64,000 nt of DNA from Tribonema minus (Eukaryota; Sar; Xanthophyceae; Tribonematales; Tribonemataceae), in NCBI GenBank assembly GCA_017506865.1, contig JAFCMP010000135.1, forward strand, positions 1,116,001 to 1,180,000, given 5' to 3'. The notes beneath the pieces were generated by a model, which was given only the letters and a program-made list of their open reading frames with translations, did no database searches and was not told where the DNA came from. Below, piece by piece: positions 1,786 to 31,156 of the stretch (its first letter is position 1; every line of letters begins with the position of its first letter). The translations under genes were made by a program, and so were the position numbers.

Positions 1786-4700
1786 TCACACTTCGTCCAG
1801 TGCGGACGCGCTGCTGCTGCTGCCGCCCGCGTCGGCGCTGCCGCTGCTGAGCTCCACCGTGTTGACGCTGACCCCAGCCTCCGCATCCGCCGCCGCCGCC
1901 GCCGCCACCGGCGTCGGCGGCAGCTCCGCCGCCTCTATGTCCTCCCCCACGTCGCCCGCCTCACTGCTGCTGCTGCTGCTGCTGCTGCTGCGGTCGTCGC
2001 TGGTCACGCTGCCGCCCTCCGCCGTGAAGTACTGGTGCCCGTTGGCGTCCGTGACGGTCGCGACGGCCACGAGCCCGGACGCGGCGACGCTGTGCGCGGC
2101 GACGGCGGCGGCGCCCTTGCCCGTCGCGCCGGGGCGGTGGTGGTGGCGGTGGTGGTGGCGGTGGTGCACGGTGTCCAGCGGAGGCAGGACGTCGGGGGCG
2201 TTGGCGGCGGCGGCGGCGCGCGCGCGCGCAAACGTGACGGCGTCGTTGATGTGCAGGAAGAGCGTGTCGGGTGTGACGCGGTCGTAGAAGCCCGTGCGCT
2301 CGAGCAGCTTGCGCTGCGGCGCGCCCCAGTGGCACATGAGCAGCTTGACGCCCTTGTCCTCCAGCGCCTGCGGCGGGGGGGGGGGGGGCAGGGGCAGGCG
2401 GTTGAGGGGCCTGGGGGGGGGAGGGGGGCGGTAATGCCCCTGGGGGAGGCTGGGGGGGGGGTAAACCCCCCCACTACCCTACTCAAGGGAAACTCATGAC
2501 AGCAATTCAGGCAGTTGTGACAGCCGGAGTGACACCTGCCTGCAGAGGTCGGGTCGTTCCGCTGGTTGTGCGGCCTGTATTTCGCCCTTCTGGTGCCTGT
2601 CAGGGGGATGTTGACCACCCAGCAAGCCTCGCTGTACCCATGTATGCCTCACCGTGCATACTGTTCTGTCTGCCCCGTGCCGCGATGCATTCACTTGCGC
2701 AATCAAACGGCGCAATCCGAAGGCATGTGCGCAGCCCAACAGCTCTCATTCAGCGCCTGCCGTCATGGGGCACTTGAGAAAGAATGGCACTGGCTGTCCA
2801 TCGAACGCGTGCAACAAATCACGGCCGCACCTGCTGCTGTAGTATTTCGTTCTGCTAGCGTGAGTGGCACTGGTTGTGCATCAAACGTGCAACAGTGAAT
2901 CACCGCCGCACCTGTATGAGCTCCAGCAGCGCGCGCAGCGCGCTGATGTCTATGGCGGTGATGGCGCCAGCGTCCAGTATCACCGTCACGATGCCCTTCT
3001 CCGCCGCCGCCTCCTTAACGCGCGCGCACAGGGCGTGGCTGTTGGCAAAGTTCAAGGCGCCCATGAACTTGAGGATCTTGATGCCCGTGTGCTCGCGCCC
3101 ATCGGGGAAGTCGCTCAGGGGGCGGTAGATGTTGGTGTTGGCCAGCCTGCATGAGGGGGGGGGGGGGGCAGGGTCAGTACTGCATGTTCAGGTCATAAAC
3201 AGTATTTACATGATGGCGGAAAGGAGCGAAGAGAACGGAAGTTGTGATCATTTCAAGGTCAAAAGACTAGATGTGACGGCAGCAGGAGCTACAAACAGAG
3301 GTTGTGATCACTGCGCGATGTCAGGGCGACCACAGTGCCGGCAAGCGGCGCTCGTGCGGCGCGCATATGTTGAGCACTGCCGGTGTGACAGGTAGCGCGG
3401 CTCAACACGACGCGCCGCAGGACAGGAACCGTGTCCGCGCTGCTGAAAGCTCTGCAGCTTTGACGCGCGGCCTGCCAAAGCAGCCACGGCGAGAGTGTGC
3501 TGTGCGTACACTCTCAGGATGAGGAGTAACTGGTAGAGAGACCTGCAAAACGCGGGCAACGCGCGACGCCTTCCAAGCAGCCACGGCGCACGCCTCTGTG
3601 CACTCGTGAGCGTCGTGTCATGCATTCCAACTTGGCGAGCTGTGCGTGCCTTTCAAACAGCCGCAGCATGCGCGGTGCGCACTCATGAGCATCACATGGT
3701 GCATTCCAACGGTGGCGCAGCGGCGAGCTGCCGCGCGCGCACGCCTACCTGCCGAGCGTGGACACCTGCTTATGCCATGTATTCCAGAATGGCAAGCTGC
3801 GCGTGCCGTTCTGAGCAGCTACGGCGCGCACGCTGCGCACTCGCGAGCCTTACTCCGTGCATTCCGAAACAAATGGCGAGCTGCGTGCGCACCTGCCGAG
3901 CGTGGACACCTGCGCCGTCGCGGAGCGCCAGACAAGCAGCAGCAGCGACAGCGCGACGCCGCCGTAGATGCCGTACATGGCGCCCGCAAAGATGCACAGC
4001 GCGAAGGTCGCGAGCCACGCGAGGCAGTCCGGCTTGCTCACGCGAAAGTACTCGGCGCCCTGGCGGAACTCGACGAGCGGCGCCAGCGCGGCGAGTATGA
4101 TCGACGCGAGGATGCACTTGGGCAGGTAGTACAGCTGCGCGGTGACGAGCGTGAGGGCGAGCACCGTCACGAGGACGGCGGCGGCGCCGTGCAGCGCGGT
4201 GCGCGCGCCGAGCGCTGCCACGACGGCCGTGCGCGAGAACGACGCGCCGGAGACGAAGGCGCCGAAGAAGGAGGACAGGGTTGTGGCTGCGCCTAGCGCG
4301 AATAGCTCGCGGTCGGGCTGGACGGTGTAGCCGTTGCTGCGCGCGCGCGGGGGGGGAGAGGGGGAAGGGGAGGGGGAGTGAGTGTGAACGCTGCTGAGTG
4401 GGATCGGAATGTGCGAGAGACGCAACGCAAAAGTGTGAGAGGGCATCAAGACAAAGGGGAGGGGGTGCAACAAGGAGAGGGGGTGCGCTGGTGGCAGCGC
4501 TCAGAGCTGGGGAGACCAGCGGTTGAGCGGCCACCTCTGCAGGAGGGGTGGGCGCGCTGCGGAGTGTAAACGCGTGGTGGTGGCGGCCTGCTTTTGTAGC
4601 GCCGTGCTGTTGTCGGCTTCCGCCGTTGACGCAGCAGACAAGCGCAAGGGTTCCAATGTGTGCTCGAGATGGCCACCACCGCTGTCACGGCTTCCAGGGC

Positions 4701-23700: not shown

Positions 23701-24203
23701 GCGGCAGTAAATTCGGCCAGCTCGCGGCAGTGGCCTCATATGGTTGGCACGTGCGCGGATGCACAACTTAACGTATCTCAAATACTTAGGAGTTCTCAGA
23801 GGAACAAACATTCAGCGGCGCACTGCCTCTTCCGGTGTCGCGCTGGCAACAGAGGCCGGGCAGCCCTGACCGATAGCACGCCGCTTACACCAGCCAGCCT
23901 TGACCCCACCCGCACCTTTGCCCTCTACGCCCCCTCGCTCAGGCTGGCTACCGCCACGCGGGAGTGCCCGTGCGCCGCCGAGTGAGTGCCGCAGCGGTGG
24001 CGCTGTACGACTCAATGAACATCAACGCGCCGCTGCCGCCGGCGCTGGGGGCGGCCACCGCCATCGCGCCGCACATTGTGTACCAGGTTGGGCCGTGCGT
24101 GTACGCGTTCCCTGTGCTGGGGCTGGAGCTCCCGCAGGGGCAGTCACAGCAGCAGCAGCAGCAGCAGCAGCAGGGCCCCGGCACAACTGCAGACGCTGGA
24201 TGA
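11732..24203 (+). CDS. Large secreted or membrane-linked protein with C-terminal class 3 lipase domain
   Basis: Predicted triacylglycerol/acylglycerol hydrolase of the lipase class 3 fold. Supported exons: 11732-12100, 12293-12483, 13611-13715, 14146-14235, 15195-15317, about 16025-16301 (splicing unclear), 16948-17031, 17511-17594 (weak), 18573-19082, 19373-19671, 20220-20291, 20590-20679, 21558-21707, 22076-22142, 22992-23185, 23943-24203. The start gives MWIEPR followed by a hydrophobic stretch, a likely signal peptide. The lipase domain holds LTVVSFRGTK, VHAGFALAF, the nucleophile elbow FTGHSMGGALAQ split between two exons, NEADAVPLL with the likely catalytic Asp, and GYRHAGVPV. Phases agree from 19082 to the stop. 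The roughly 600-residue N-terminal part is Ala/Ser/Arg-rich with no family I recognise. The protein ends in a glutamine run. An extra exon could lie at 24575-24829. Confidence 0.85.
13481..13640. repeat. Duplicated acceptor and exon start in the lipase gene
   Basis: The real exon starts after TGTGGCACCTGCAG at 13610. A near copy, TGTGGCGCTTGCAG followed by CGCGGCGCTGCAGCGG, lies 116 bases upstream with its own AG at 13494. The preceding CCCATGTCGCTCACA block is duplicated as well. The copy is a cryptic acceptor whose following frame differs from the true exon after about 15 bases. Confidence 0.8.
14975..15317 (+). repeat. Triplicated acceptor and exon start in the lipase gene
   Basis: The real exon starts at 15195 and reads MARRDLSSATDVLLDLQ. 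Copies of the AG and the first 45 bases or so start at 14980 (MAQRDLSSATDVLLQ) and 15083 (MARRDLSSAVDVLLK), spaced 103 and 112 bases apart. Each copy runs straight into ACTTCAAGTTGAAGT-type repeats. All three keep an AG acceptor and an open frame, but only the third is followed by a full exon and a GT donor. Confidence 0.85.
16552..16622. repeat. 20-base triple repeat ending in an inverted repeat
   Basis: CGTCGCCAGCAAGCGGCGG occurs three times in a row. The last unit is followed directly by its complement (GCCGCCGCTTGCTGAC), so the 3' end can fold into a GC-rich hairpin with a stem of about 12 pairs. It lies in an intron of the lipase gene between 16301 and 16948. Confidence 0.8.
17878..18380. 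repeat. Two diverged copies of a 200-base segment in a lipase intron
   Basis: The segments at about 17880-18075 and 18185-18380 share an ordered series of blocks: TACTACCCTC, then TCAGCCATG, then GTGGTGCGC, then CTGCCTCCCCG, then ATGGCAGCACGTTGAC, and finally CCTGTTACAGC. Spacing is about 305 bases. Neither copy shows a clear conserved reading frame. Confidence 0.75.
20760..20783. repeat. Interstitial TTAGGG-type tract
   Basis: Four units of the telomere-type hexamer lie in the lipase intron about 80 bases after the donor at 20680. Similar two- to four-unit tracts occur in the same gene near 13745, 16740, 18490-18535 and 21733. Confidence 0.85.
22838..23570. repeat. Duplicated boundaries around the lipase nucleophile exon
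   Basis: Upstream of exon 22992-23185, the block CAACAAGTACCAC plus a C run plus CCAAT..CAG|GGCACT is present twice (decoy AG at 22882, true AG at 22991, 109 bases apart). Downstream, the exon end and donor recur twice: GCGTGTGGAACGAGGC with CTG|GTAAGC near 23340, and GCGCAGCTG|GTGAGAATC near 23549. The exon carrying the catalytic serine is thus flanked by copies of both of its own edges. Confidence 0.82.
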
Positions 24204-26514
24204 GAGAGAGGATGCCGTTGGTGCAGCGGCAGCAGCCACAGCAGCAGCAGCAGCACCGGCGGAAGCAGCAGCAGCAACAGCGGCAGCAGCAGCAACGGCG
24301 GTAGCAGCAGCAGCAACAGCGGCAGCAGGAGCAGCAACAAGCAGCAACGGCAGCAGCAGCAGCAGCGTGCTGATGCGGCTGCAACCGCTGCAAAGGCACC
24401 AGTGGTGACAGGCATCGATGTTGTGCGCTCCCCAAGCTGGATTTCGCGCAAGGGCATAGCGAATGGCCACCATGGCAGCAGTCGCGAGTCGAAGAGTCTG
24501 CAAGGTCAGCAAGGGCATGCGGCTTACCACTAATAGCAGCCGCACGTATGCTCTCTTGGTGTGAAACACATCTACCCCCCAGCAGCAGCGGCCGCAGCCC
24601 ACAGCGAGCTGCCCCTGCCGCCTGCGGCAGCAACTGGTCTCAAATGCACTCGCGCCGGTGCAGCAAGGGCATCCCGATGCTGCGCCCGGCGAAGAAGGCT
24701 TGGCGCTGTCAAAGCAGAAGGCAGGGCACACCCGACCGCAGCTTCCGGGAGGAGCTAGTGCTGCGGCAGCACTGCACATCTGCCACGGCCGCATCAGATC
24801 GAAGCCGCACGCGGCGCTGATTTTCCAATGGTGATCAACACACCGCTACCCTGTCCTGAGCCTGCGCCTGCACGCCCGCTGCAGCACCGCTGCGTTTGAA
24901 TGTGCGCATGCAGCGCTGCTGGCACAGATGCCGTCAGATCGGCAGGGCGCGGCGTGGCCAGGCATCGGCTGCTGCACGCAGGGGAGCTGCAGGGGTTTCT
25001 GGTGCACATTTAAAAAAAAAAAGTGCTCTGTACACGTAAGACGAGCTTGTGTCGTGCTCAGATTGGCACAATGACATTGCATCGTAGACGGGCTGGCACC
25101 TTTCTCAGGGAAGACAAGCAGCTCGCTGTGAATGCTGACAGCTGGCATTCTCCACTAGACTGATGGTATACGCTGGGTTCACGTGGTGGACTTGATAGCC
25201 TGACATCTGCCATACAAACTATCTCGCTGCCATTAGGCAGCTTTTACAGGCATTTCCTTCCCGCGACAATATGCAAGGTTCAGCACTGAGCACAGGTGCC
25301 ACCATAGCATAGCACATCACAGCACAGACTGGATCACACAGCGATTTGAAGAAAAAACATCTTCTGCATCACTGCCAGGCATCACGAAGCATGTTCCGCC
25401 GCTGCTGCTGTATTGCTTTGCCTGAGGGTGTGTCAGTTCCACGCGGGCGTGTACACCTTGAATTTTGAAAGTAAATCAGCGAGGTATATGATGATCATTG
25501 TAGATTACAGACCGGTTAATCAGCCGCTTTTGAGTGCCTGAAGTGTATCTTCATTGGCACGGCTTGGCTCTTGTGCAAAACACTTCAGAGGACTGTGCAG
25601 TCAGCTGTGTGCAGCAGCCCCTTCAGGTGTACTTTGTCAAAGGTCTGGCCGAGCACTGATGTGATGACACAGAGCACTGACGCAATAGCAATCGTGACAC
25701 ACGCCCCTCGCCTGATGCTGATGCAGCGCTCAGGCTACCGCAGATTAACAGCGCCCGCTGCTTGCACGCAGCCGCCAATGACTACAGCACATCATGCTCA
25801 TCAGAAAATGCTTTGAAGTCGGGTTTTGCATGTGAGTTGTTGAGAACTGGTGCTGCACCCTTCTGTGCTGGCAGCACCACCTGTCACCCTGATGATTCGT
25901 GTTCAACAGGGTGTGCTCACTCAGCGCGTGCATGTGCGCCCCCCCCTAGGAGTGCCTCGCGGAGGGCACATGCTTCGTGCCGTTGCCATGCTGAGATGCC
26001 ACCTTGGTCCTGCAGCGCATGCAAGTCATCAGAGTATGCAGTCTTGTCCGCGCAGCCAATGGTGATAAATGCTACATTGCATGGATGGCTGTCGCTATCA
26101 GCAGCTACCCTGTCGCCCCAGGGTTCCCGGTGCTTCGGCCACAATAGGTAGCCATTCTGAACAGCAGTGCCAGGCAGTTCCCTGAGAGACTTGCTCCAGC
26201 TTCCAGTGGCTTGTGTACTTGTTATCACTGCTGCTGCTGCACATGTGCTCAGAGCATCTGTGTTTGCAGGGGCAGCTGCGCATGTTGAATTTCAAGTCAC
26301 AACTGATTGACGGGCTCGTATATGCATCCAGCATGTAGGCTAGAACGAACAGCAGCAACAGGCAGGCAAAAGCTGGGCGCTTATAGTGCCACATGGACCA
26401 TAGCGAATTTTGAATTGTGATTTCTTGACGCCGCAAGCTCTGGCCTGCCTCGCTCCCACGCCCCCTTATCCCCCCGCCACTCCAAAAAGAGGCCTCCGTT
26501 TGACGCCTCCCTGT
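24204..26514. other. Convergent intergenic region with CAG/CAA-rich low-complexity sequence
   Basis: This separates the lipase stop from the stop of the SOD-like gene. The first 180 bases are dominated by CAG and CAA triplets and read as Ala-, Gln- or Ser-rich in the three plus frames. The plus frame ending at 24829 (…HICHGRIRSKPHAALIFQW then stop) could be an alternative last lipase exon. From 24830 to 26514 I see no recognisable protein, no structural RNA and no strong repeat. A ten-base A run is at 25011-25021. Confidence 0.5.
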
Positions 26515-29500
26515 CTACTTGGAGGGAGCAATGCCAATGACGCCGCCCGCGACGCGCGCGCCGCTGTTGCCGGTGGAGAGGCTCAGCTCGTGTCCGCCGC
26601 GCCCCAGGTCGTCTTCGTTGGCTTTGACGATGATCGAGCGGCCGATGACGGAGTGCGGCCCGATGAGTTTCACCAGGCTGTCCTCAATGGCAATCTGCGC
26701 AGGCGTGCATGAGAGGGTGGCAAGCAGGCATCGTGAGCGGCTGCGGCGGTGCGCTGTGGGGCAACTGCAACGGCAATGATGGTGACGCTGAGCACTACAG
26801 AGTGTATGTGCCGGTGCAAACAGGCGGCAGGGGGGGGGGCAGTGGGGTGCTTGCCCTCCGCCACTGTGTGTGCCGGGGGGGAACACACATTGAGGGTGCT
26901 GATGATCATCCGCAACGGTAACCAGAGAGCAGCAGCGACTTGATCGCCGTCTATGGGTGTTCACGAGCAAACCCAGCAGTAACTCTGTGTGATATCGGTT
27001 GACGCGCCCGGCCTTACGTGGCGCAGCAGCAGCAGATGTCTACTTCGAAGTATATATAGAGTGTGGCGCGCCGCACCGGTTCCTGAATTCAGCAAAGTAG
27101 TCATTGCCACAGTAGCATTCTTGCTGCGGTCATCTTGGGAGGGACTGCGCAGCACCTTCTCAACACTTGAAGTTGACCAATGATCAAGATGAGGCACTTT
27201 GATGGCCCATGCTCAACTCGGGGAGGTACACTGAGACCGGGCAGGTACCAAGGACCTCATACACAGGGGCATTCTCAGGCGCAGTGACACGACAGTTTTG
27301 GAACTTCAGGCGCGGTGACATGACAGCGCTGTACTTTGCATACCCCACGTTAATAAGGCAGTATCGGAATCTAAAGCACCGTGACATGGCAGTGTGATCG
27401 GTGTGTGCTATACATACCTTGCATACCCCCTCCTCGTCTGCTTCCACGTTGCCCAGGTCGCCGACCATGCGTTCCTCGTCATCTGGTGCGCCTGCAGTTT
27501 CGACAGTTACAGCAGTTGCAAGCAGCAGAGGGTCCCATCTTTCAGCAGAGCTATTGCGGTTTGTGTCAGCTGTGCTGACCGCGCAAACAACACACTTGGT
27601 ACACTGCGCACAAGTTGGCTGCGCACTCGTGGCAGTCTACACTGGTGACAGTTGGCATCGCACTGCCATGTTGTGACAATGACTTGCTGCACTTTGACTG
27701 AAAGAAAAACTTCAGCCTCAGACAGCCAACAGACGTTGCACGGAGGCGCACACGGCAAGTGCCCTTCATGGTGCAGCGACAGGCCATGCAGAGTGACTGG
27801 CGGACGTGGATCCAAGCATAACAGACATGGGCCTTGTAAGACGCATTTGCTTCCTGGCCAGAATGGCGTAGCCGTTGGTGGCACAGAGCCCGCAAGAGCA
27901 TGTCATTTGTGCTTGGTCACGGTGTGGTGCGCGCAGCAGGCCACACAATGCATGGCTTTTCCCAAAACTCACTGCAGCCCCGAGTGCACTCGTACCAATA
28001 CATAGCTACCACAGGCTGTCATAAAACCTCAGGGGCCAATGCGCAGAAGCACTTGTGCTGACACTCATGGCCACGCATGTTGTCAGCAGCAACACGTTAT
28101 GTTGGAGGCTATAGCCGGTTACACAAGACGATGTCACGCCTAAACATAGCCGGTGACACAAGACGATGTCACGCCTAAACAAGGTGGGAAAATCACCATG
28201 CGTCCAGGATCTCGTGACAGCCATGTACAGTATTATCATCAAAAGGAGTCGGTGGCCAGGAGTTTTTGCTGCAGTCCAGTTGCTGAATGCGCGTTTAACA
28301 TTCAGCAGCATCGCGGCAGCTTTCCAGCGAGTGACCATCTGTCTCTTGAAACATTTTGCTTGCGACAGCCTGCCAGCCACACGTGCAAGTGCAGCAGCCT
28401 TGGGCCTGCATAGAGGATGCCTAGGCATTCTGCGATGAGCGACTGGTGTCTGGCAGCATTGCCTCACCTTCGATACCCACACCAGCAAGGTCTGTTGCAA
28501 CAGCTAGGCCTCGTGTGTCGAAGTAGTATTCGTTGCTTGAAACCTCTTCCCTACACCTGCTGACCCTGACCTGATGCTGGGACCAAGTATGTGTACTCCA
28601 GTATTTGAGTTGTAGGTACATGCGTGCAATTTTTAAATTATTGCCCGGATCTGACGGTGCCTGGTGCAACCGCATTTCCATTGCTTGCGTCTGACTGTGT
28701 GCGTATCATCTTGCATGGACCTTTCTTGGCAGTCAAGCGAGCCCTACAGCTGGAGCTCACCGTGGTTCTTTCCAAAGGGATTGAAGATCCCGCCAGCACT
28801 TGTCAGCCCCTCCGAAAAGTCCCCAAATATATGTACATGCAATCCATGCCTCCCTGGCCGCAATCCGCTGATCTGTCCCTCAATTATTGTTGATGCATCT
28901 TCCTGTGCCTATCATCCAGGTGGAAGGTGAGTGTGTAGGCGGAAGGCAGAAGGCCGACAGAAAGGTCAACATTCTGGCAAGGGGGGCTGGGTACAGTGCA
29001 GCCAAGATCACATGGTGGCATGCTTTTCAAATGCAGCCAACTCAACTTGAATGCACAATATGTCCCACGCAGATACACTGGCTGTCAAGCAACAGCCAGC
29101 AAGACAGCTGCGGGCTCCTCGCGTTCAGATAACCGGCAGAACAAGCAATCATCATTCAGACGTATGGCGATCAATGTATTTTCCTGAAGACTTGTGGACT
29201 GGACCTAAGGCGATGACCAGGCACTTCTATCACAAGGGGCACAACAGCATCATGCTCCCGACTGCAGAGACAAGGTCGAGTCGAGGGCAGCAGCTGTATA
29301 TCTGCACCTCGTACCTCTCTACAGCAGCGTCTGACGCCACCAGTCACCCTCAGCACATGTTCACACCGTATCGTGCAGGTTAACCGGATCAGCGAAACTT
29401 GTAGCAGCAGCGTCAGCACGCTGCAAGGTGCATCAAGCGCGCCGCTGCCAGCACCACCGAAAATCCAGCTTAGAAGCCGCAAGTTCCGCTTTCTCTCACC

Positions 29501-29565
29501 TGTGAAAAAGTCAGCAGGCCCTTCACGCCCTCCTCCCCTGCGAACGTGCAAGATGCTTTTGCCAT
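26515..29565 (-). CDS. Cu/Zn superoxide dismutase-like protein lacking key metal ligands (probable pseudoenzyme)
   Basis: Four exons, 29565-29500, 28902-28761, 27491-27418 and 26694-26515, splice in matching phase into a 153-residue protein, the length of a standard cytosolic Cu/Zn SOD (human SOD1 is 154), with no leader and no Atx1-like domain. Family landmarks are clear: [59 protein letters not shown] and a GVIGI C-terminus. By human SOD1 numbering His46, His48, His71, Asp83 and Arg143 are kept. The bridging ligand His63 is Ile, zinc ligand His80 is Met and copper ligand His120 is Lys. Both disulfide cysteines are gone (Cys57 to Leu, Cys146 to Gly). Normal dismutase chemistry is therefore unlikely. 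Frames and splice sites are intact, so this looks like a maintained gene, not a decayed one. A structural, chaperone or altered-metal role is possible. Confidence 0.92.
28098..28182. repeat. 37-base direct duplication in an SOD-like gene intron
   Basis: ATAGCCGGTTACACAAGACG followed by ATGTCACGCCTAAAC occurs twice back to back with one changed base (GGTTACAC against GGTGACAC). It lies within the intron between 28761 and 27491 and away from any splice site. Confidence 0.85.
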
Positions 29566-30000: not shown

Positions 30001-31156
30001 ATGGCGCCGTGGGGGAAGAAGCCGGCCGCTCCTGTGCAGCCGCCTCCGCCGCCGCCGCCCCCAGCTCCTTCGAGCCCTGGAGAACTGGCGCAGCAGGTAC
30101 GTTTCTCAGCAAGCTGGCATGCATGCACGCAGCACAATATTCGGCGCGCTGCTACATACACGGCTTCCGCATAAGGCAGGACAACATGAAGGGCATATTG
30201 TAATTGCAGATCTCGTTGACACATTTTGCAACGCTGCTGCACTCACCCCTTCAATCCCAAATCTCCTTCGTGCTACCACCCGGAAACATGAAAATGCGGG
30301 CTGCACCTGCCCGTGAACTGGTTGTAAATCGTGTGCTGCTGCAATGATGCTGCAAATGCAGGTGGCACATGTGCTTGGGCCGGTTCTGCTGGTAGTGCTG
30401 GGCATGGCAGCTGTGAGTTGGCTAAGTGGGCTGGTGTTCCGGGGGAAGAGCCGGGAGGGCTTCCTGGCACTATACTTCGGTGAGTTCCCGTCTATAAATG
30501 ATGTCAAGGGTGCATTGGTGTGCTGCACCTGGTGCAAGAGCCACCGCAAATGATGCGTGGCTCATAATGTGGCAAGCAGCAGTATAACTCGTTGCTGCAG
30601 CAGGCCAGTAACACCGCAGCCAATACGCGGACAACGGTGTTGTGCATGGTGCCATTGCAGTCTTGCAGTTCATGGAGCGTTCGCGTTCGTCACACAGTCC
30701 ATGGAGCGCATCGGAGACTCGATGCTGCGCAAGGAACGCAAGCATCTTCTCAGCCCAGCGGCATGCCGCCAGCGCTTGACAGCAATTCAGCAGAGATCAA
30801 CTTGAGGCGGTGACTGCTGCTCTGCCCCTGGACCTCAGCTTCGCGGCCAAACCACTCCACCAGTGCTGCTCTTTCAATCCGCTGCTCGTGCACTCACAAC
30901 ACTCAAGTCCACGCGATCGCCGCGCGGCGCAGCGGCGGCAGTGGCGGTGGCGGCGCAGCTGCTGGTGGCCAGCGGCGACGCTGCGGAGGCGTGGCGGATG
31001 CTCAGCGCGCTGCCGGCGTCGGCGCGGTGCGCTGTTGGAGCGCTGCTGTCATCGCTGTCGTACGCGGCTTCGCGGGCGGTGTTTGCGAGCGGGGGCGCTG
31101 GCGATGGTGACGCAGCCGCAGCGGTGGCACCTGTGCCAGGTGATTTTGCCCTTTGA
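30001..31156 (+). CDS. Small proline-rich protein with one predicted membrane segment, function unknown
   Basis: Three exons, 30001-30096, 30362-30479 and 30864-31156, join in matching phase (0, 1) to give about 168 residues. The first exon encodes a basic start, MAPWGKKPAAP, followed by an eight-proline run. The second carries a hydrophobic stretch, VLGPVLLVVLGMAAVSWLSG, consistent with one membrane helix, then a basic patch FRGKSREGF. The third is Ala-rich and ends PVPGDFAL before a TGA. I do not recognise a family. A short, single-span protein with a Pro-rich head could sit in an organelle or endomembrane, but nothing in the sequence decides this. The ATG follows a CTACAG that could be an acceptor, so the true start may be upstream. 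Confidence 0.55.

Follow-up and report, generated by a model that had tools for sequence, protein, structure and literature searches.

Copper/zinc superoxide dismutase (SOD1) is a textbook metalloenzyme; deprived of its metals and its disulfide, it is unstable and has been tied to protein aggregation in human disease. What, then, is to be made of a gene of SOD1 length that is intact from start to stop codon and has lost metal ligands at both sites together with both disulfide cysteines? We analysed such a gene in an algal sequence of 64,000 nucleotides (the whole stretch, hereafter the window). A preliminary description had proposed that the gene is intact, that its active site is broken and that the rest is maintained, and this proposal stood up to alignment, a Fisher test and drift simulation.

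Gene structure and coding signal

The SOD1-like gene lies on the minus strand of the window (26515-29565), and its four exons join in phase to give a product of 153 amino acids. Exon 1 (29500..29565) begins with the A of the ATG at 29565, with an in-frame stop two codons upstream, and ends at the donor GTGAGAGA. Exon 2 (28761..28902; acceptor ...GCACAG, donor GTGAGC) and exon 4 with the stop codon (26515..26694; acceptor ...GCGCAG) match the Pfam profile Sod_Cu on their own, with 53.4 and 43.3 bits, respectively; exon 3 (27418..27491) lies between the acceptor ...CTGCAG and the donor GTATGT. The three introns, all GT...AG and on the same strand, measure 597 nt (intron 1, 28903..29499), 1269 nt (intron 2, 27492..28760, phase 1) and 723 nt (intron 3, 26695..27417). 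Splice sites, phases and frame are thus intact across 462 nt, and on joining and translating the exons the sole stop is the one at the end, which bears out what had been claimed for splice sites and frame. The window slice agrees with the same loci re-fetched from the genome assembly and contains no N, a check made within one assembly and therefore not independent. When the open reading frames of the locus were inspected by eye, no alternative frame or splice site restoring the lost histidines/cysteines was seen.

The product matches Sod_Cu with 147.5 bits (cut-off 28.9) and covers profile positions 1-133 of 133, in keeping with its earlier description as a full-length Cu/Zn SOD homologue. Its N terminus aligns with the start of SOD1; that is, it is a single domain without a leader. 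The closest single-domain PDB sequence match is 3mnd (57% identity), which we take to be the SOD of Taenia solium. Identities are 57% to the Taenia SOD, 56-57% to a eukaryotic-type SOD from a metagenomic contig (L081, see below), 52% to human SOD1, 50% to spinach SOD and 47% to human CCS, the copper chaperone.

The coding signal is intermediate. GC3 is 0.64, 0.49, 0.71 and 0.85 in exons 1-4, and the signal of exon 2 is weak, its GC3 being close to the intron GC of 0.54. The codon score beats synonymous recoding at intron composition (0/3000 recodings as good) and falls below that of 18 reference coding stretches of the genome, drawn from 24 loci (L007-L030; 0/3000 as poor). It lies between the two, outside the simulated range of both, and usage of this kind agrees with modest expression or with some relaxation.

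Lost and retained active-site residues

In human numbering, exon 2 encodes Ile in place of His63 (codon ATC) and Leu in place of Cys57 (CTG), exon 3 encodes Met in place of His80 (ATG), and exon 4 encodes Lys in place of His120 (AAA) and Gly in place of Cys146 (GGC), leaving the protein without the Cys57-Cys146 disulfide. Two of the four copper ligands (46, 48, 63, 120) are therefore replaced, namely 63 and 120, as are two of the four zinc ligands (His63, His71, His80, Asp83), namely 63 and 80. Retained are His46, His48 and His71 in exon 2 (CAT, CAT, CAC), Asp83 in exon 3 (GAC) and Arg143 in exon 4 (CGC), the last along with Asp124 and the C-terminal strand. Compared with CAY/TGY, the five changes amount to at least 11 of 15 nucleotide differences, with at least two changes per histidine loss. 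Because so many differences are needed, the histidine losses are not explained by single base errors. Codons and alignment confirm all five substitutions and all five retained residues of the preliminary description; the alignment adds two further changes that it had missed, Phe45 to Leu and Glu49 to Ile, both in exon 2 and at near-invariant positions. Judged by these residues, SOD activity of the protein is very improbable.

Conservation and drift

The alignment comprises the SOD1-like protein and 104 SODs (Taenia, human, 24 viral and 78 from a genome collection). The search patterns required the HVH motif, or allowed H/I at position 63 and H/M at position 80; 80 of 117 relatives were retained, and 28 of 130 loci were left out as duplicates or as shorter than 120 amino acids. 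Because the patterns favour the HVH motif (His46/His48), the 104 are no fair census of all SODs. Of 35 columns common to at least 90% of them, 30 are kept in the SOD1-like protein, and the five changed ones are F45, E49, H63, H80 and H120, three of which are metal ligands. A narrower set of 27 eukaryotic-type/viral rows (Taenia, human, L081 and the 24 viral SODs) shares 57 columns at the 95% level or above, 46 of them kept.

The changes are concentrated at the active site. Metal, disulfide and Arg143 sites are changed at 5 of 10 positions as against 6 of 47 other conserved sites (one-sided Fisher p 0.017); the same comparison on the 35-column set points the same way and is weak alone (3/8 vs 2/27, p 0.067). 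Among the 104 aligned SODs, which were gathered with patterns favouring intact sites, no row lacks two or more of the seven metal ligands, and the 24 distinct viral rows show no ligand loss at all. A single zinc-side ligand is replaced in each of two bacterial rows (H63N in L132, H80N in L154), and the disulfide cysteines vary widely across the bacterial rows. Seven rows with an apparent H63A were treated as alignment artefacts because the change disappears in the multiple alignment. A search for the H80M pattern in viral contigs gave 0 stretches; the H63I pattern gave 46, none of which proved related at a threshold of E 1e-3 (the best tblastn value being E 0.036).

Could drift have produced this combination? 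Drift over the gene's whole history was simulated at eight distances, with 4000 runs for each. Under a strict demand, all five named losses had to occur while 41 or more of the 47 other conserved residues survived and no stop appeared; 0 of 4000 runs reached it at any distance. A looser demand (any five of the ten sites lost, 41 or more of the 47 residues retained, stops disregarded) was reached in at most 34 of 4000 runs: 15, 34 and 3 at distances of 0.05, 0.1 and 0.2, and none at larger distances. Neutral drift is a poor account of the pattern. Given these simulations and the kept framework, constraint therefore most likely acted on the rest of the gene and not on its active site. The simulations bear on drift over the whole history and not on a very recent death of the gene.

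Family placement

Our trees place the SOD1-like gene with the eukaryotic-type SOD1s; they resolve no neighbour for it, and its terminal branch is long (0.65-0.73, vs 0.23-0.42 for the human, Taenia, L081 and 8jd8 SODs). The approximately unbiased test gave p-AU values of 0.44 for a clade with Taenia, 0.28 with plant SODs, 0.27 with human CCS (one CCS row) and 0.18 with L081; none of the four groupings is rejected. L081 itself (1001-1459) is an intronless eukaryotic-type SOD with all ligands intact on a 'cyanobacterial' MAG contig (QS_4_48_99), possibly through eukaryotic contamination or transfer.

A viral origin was considered and rejected: the 8 of 50 viral SOD loci that were used in the trees form a clade of their own (100/100) without the SOD1-like gene, and the viral rows keep all their metal ligands. 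A fungal-type Cu-only SOD/CSRP fits poorly, as the copper site is also broken here and the electrostatic loop is ungapped relative to human and Taenia SOD; published accounts of fungal Cu-only SODs describe a kept copper site and a shortened electrostatic loop (PMC13017621).

The accessory domains of CCS were sought around the gene. At E 0.1, HMA/Atx1 has 12 matches in the genome, none on the contig of the SOD1-like gene, and the 6.4 kb upstream of the gene contain no MxCxxC on the minus strand; the earlier statement that an Atx1 domain is absent thus holds. The stop follows directly after GVIGIAPSK, leaving no C-terminal CxC domain, and matches to C[SAT]C in 24001-26514 lie only in low-complexity frames 2.2-2.3 kb downstream.

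Other superoxide dismutases and the plastid lineage

The genome assembly searched holds 158 Mb in 554 contigs. With the Sod_Cu profile, the protein itself, a plant SOD and human CCS as queries, no second SOD1 or CCS domain II was found genome-wide; the best matches outside the locus have E 1.45 and 2.93. A CCS that is strongly diverged and split over exons could escape these searches. Fe/Mn SODs gave eight matches on five contigs, two of the eight with an internal stop, and the one locus compared with the PDB matches Mn and Mn/Fe SODs.

The plastid of the source alga looks to be of the red lineage, judging from two kinds of marker. An rbcL fragment with an internal stop lies within a large contig (L211, G000:C334:714136-714324, minus strand); it is likely a plastid DNA insertion, and we take it to be of the red type. 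Three light-harvesting complex (LHC) stretches match PDB light-harvesting chains, first the multi-domain LHCI chains of 9vfj and then mostly non-green ones, presumably from cryptophytes, eustigmatophytes and other non-green hosts. A green-algal context, considered in view of the many LHC matches, was rejected on these non-green PDB matches and the red-type rbcL fragment. Cu/Zn SOD is described as thought to be absent from green algae outside the charophytes (PMC8873139), and a trebouxiophyte Cu/Zn SOD isoform has nevertheless been reported (PMC10421774). The LHC genes occur in near-identical pairs on separate contigs (C79/C1, C296/C490 and C70/C489), which may be haplotigs or recent duplicates. 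Two of the pairs were read (L016/L017 and L019/L020) and the third is known from matching scores only; the SOD-like gene was found once.

Competing explanations

The gene might have died recently, its function shifted or lost, and be decaying with as yet no stop or broken splice site. Low codon bias, the intron-like GC3 of exon 2 and the long terminal branch would agree with this, and Fe/Mn SODs could take over superoxide removal; the lenient simulation, too, is nonzero at short distances. However, a frame and splice sites intact over 462 nt and 46 of 57 conserved columns kept speak against such decay, the strict simulation never reached the pattern, and 11 of 15 nucleotide changes at five codons are hard to reach by short drift. 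Moreover, diatom homologues with similar losses are transcribed according to their published survey (PMC4460010). We consider a dead gene unlikely.

Two further readings keep the protein at work, and we give little credence to either. It could be a CCS domain II stripped of its Atx1 and CxC domains and acting as a folding chaperone, similar to what has been proposed for insect CCS without the Atx1 copper site. The SOD1-like protein and human CCS share Leu45, Ser140 and the absence of His120, and the p-AU of their clade has been given above. Arabidopsis CCS presumably also lacks His63, His80, His120 and both cysteines, which counts for this reading. Yet the three-residue gap before D(V/L)IGR, present in both CCS rows, is absent here; identity is higher to SOD1s (50-57%) than to human CCS; the C terminus is SOD1-like; neither an HMA match on the contig nor an upstream MxCxxC was seen; and the genome search found no SOD1 client. 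Equally improbable, to our minds, is a metalloprotein with altered sites, in which His46/His48 and a new donor would bind Cu(I) or another ion for residual redox activity or metal buffering. Two copper-side histidines and the zinc-side His71/Asp83 do remain, Met80 might serve as a soft donor, and some SODs function without the zinc site or without the disulfide. Against it, the bridging His63 and His120 are both lost, human CCS domain II without the fourth histidine is described as unable to bind copper, and YojM, with a disrupted copper site, binds no copper and is inactive.

A proposed maintained, metal-poor pseudoenzyme

The explanation towards which we lean, with some reserve, is a pseudoenzyme of the SOD1 lineage, poor in metal and maintained in a red-lineage alga, akin to the ligand-poor homologues of diatoms. 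Retention of the C-terminal strand GVIGIA, of Phe50-Gly51 and of Ile113-Gly114-Arg115 suggests that the protein would fold as the SOD1 beta-barrel and probably pair into a homodimer; the N-terminal dimer residues Val5 and Val7 are changed. No catalytic copper is expected. Instead, the metal-free barrel may be stabilized by the bridge His46-Asp124-His71, which we take to be the hydrogen-bonded secondary bridge of SOD1 and of which all three residues are kept here, and by hydrophobic filling of the old sites by Leu, Ile and Met. Lys120 would put a permanent positive charge beside the former copper site and, together with Arg143, could form a positive pocket. Since the channel mouth retains Arg143 and Thr137, an anion or a small ligand may be bound in this pocket. 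Alternatively, the dimer could work in docking or as a chaperone in the manner of CCS domain II. Of the possible functions, we rate ligand binding and protein docking highest. Superoxide removal would pass to Fe/Mn SODs.

More tentatively, and as a possibility we would not yet lean on, red-lineage algae might share an ancient family of metal-free dimers with the SOD1 fold, in which the His46-Asp124-His71 bridge is kept and, in the present case, Lys120 stands in for the copper charge.

Relatives and significance

The closest parallel comes from a 2015 diatom survey, which describes only His71 and Asp83 as fully conserved in the majority of transcribed 'CuZnSOD' homologues; these are 42-52% identical to spinach SOD and are classed there as Cu-ZnSODs (PMC4460010). 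By that published description, on which the whole comparison is based, the likeness extends to the red plastid lineage, the SOD1 homology, the loss of canonical histidines and the retention of His71 and Asp83; the gene studied here differs in also keeping His46 and His48. The preliminary view that known non-enzymatic relatives lose other sets of residues is not supported by the diatom homologues so described. Since His71 and Asp83 are kept and identity to spinach SOD is 50%, we think that the gene lies in, or parallel to, a transcribed ligand-poor SOD1-like group of red-lineage algae, and on residue pattern it most likely belongs with the diatom homologues.

SOD-fold proteins without a working site are known from the literature elsewhere, among them YojM, dominin, Sodesque and CCS domain II. 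CCS domain II (human, insect) shares the SOD1 fold, the lack of a usable copper site, the replaced His120, Leu45 and Ser140. Human CCS nevertheless keeps three copper histidines, the zinc site and the disulfide, and has Atx1 and C-terminal domains; the SOD1-like gene has neither these domains nor the CCS gap. YojM of Bacillus subtilis is described as a SOD fold with a disrupted copper site and no activity (PMC10432803); it is bacterial, and the likeness is one of description and not residue by residue. Oyster dominin, mussel pernin, Cu-less CSRP and Drosophila Sodesque are SOD-related and described as lacking the copper site, catalytic residues or activity, but they are animal proteins, described as extracellular or as having several SOD domains, whereas ours has a single domain. 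The cysteine-less CuZnSOD of Paenibacillus (PaSOD) likewise has a SOD domain without the conserved disulfide; in contrast, it is enzymatically active and homodimerizes via an extra N-terminal domain. In the literature searched at title/abstract level, we found no algal ligand-poor SOD1-like protein described as a pseudoenzyme.

If the pseudoenzyme reading is right, this otherwise conserved barrel, with ligands missing from each metal site and no disulfide, would be a natural example of how the SOD1 fold gains stability without metal. In addition, algal 'Cu/Zn SOD' annotations, a basis for the argument about metal substitution in the ocean, may partly include proteins unable to dismutate superoxide. 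If the ancient family is real, its members were counted as Cu/Zn SODs in surveys, and the idea that derived diatoms transcribe CuZnSOD instead of FeSOD would therefore need revision.

Genomic neighbourhood

A Pfam scan of 20 of the 177 open reading frames of at least 110 amino acids in the window gave one match, an exon of a sulfate permease family gene at 3853-4500 (minus strand; Sulfate_transp, 92.6 bits). No Pfam family matches the open reading frame at 30806-31153. At about 30001 on the plus strand, about 436 bases from the ATG of the SOD-like gene, a divergent gene may begin, with MAPWGKKPAAPVQ..., followed by a hydrophobic stretch in another frame; perhaps the two genes share a promoter. 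On the other side, at about 23950-24850, the window contains a CAG/CTG-rich low-complexity stretch with poly-Cys, -Ala, -Leu and -Ser frames.
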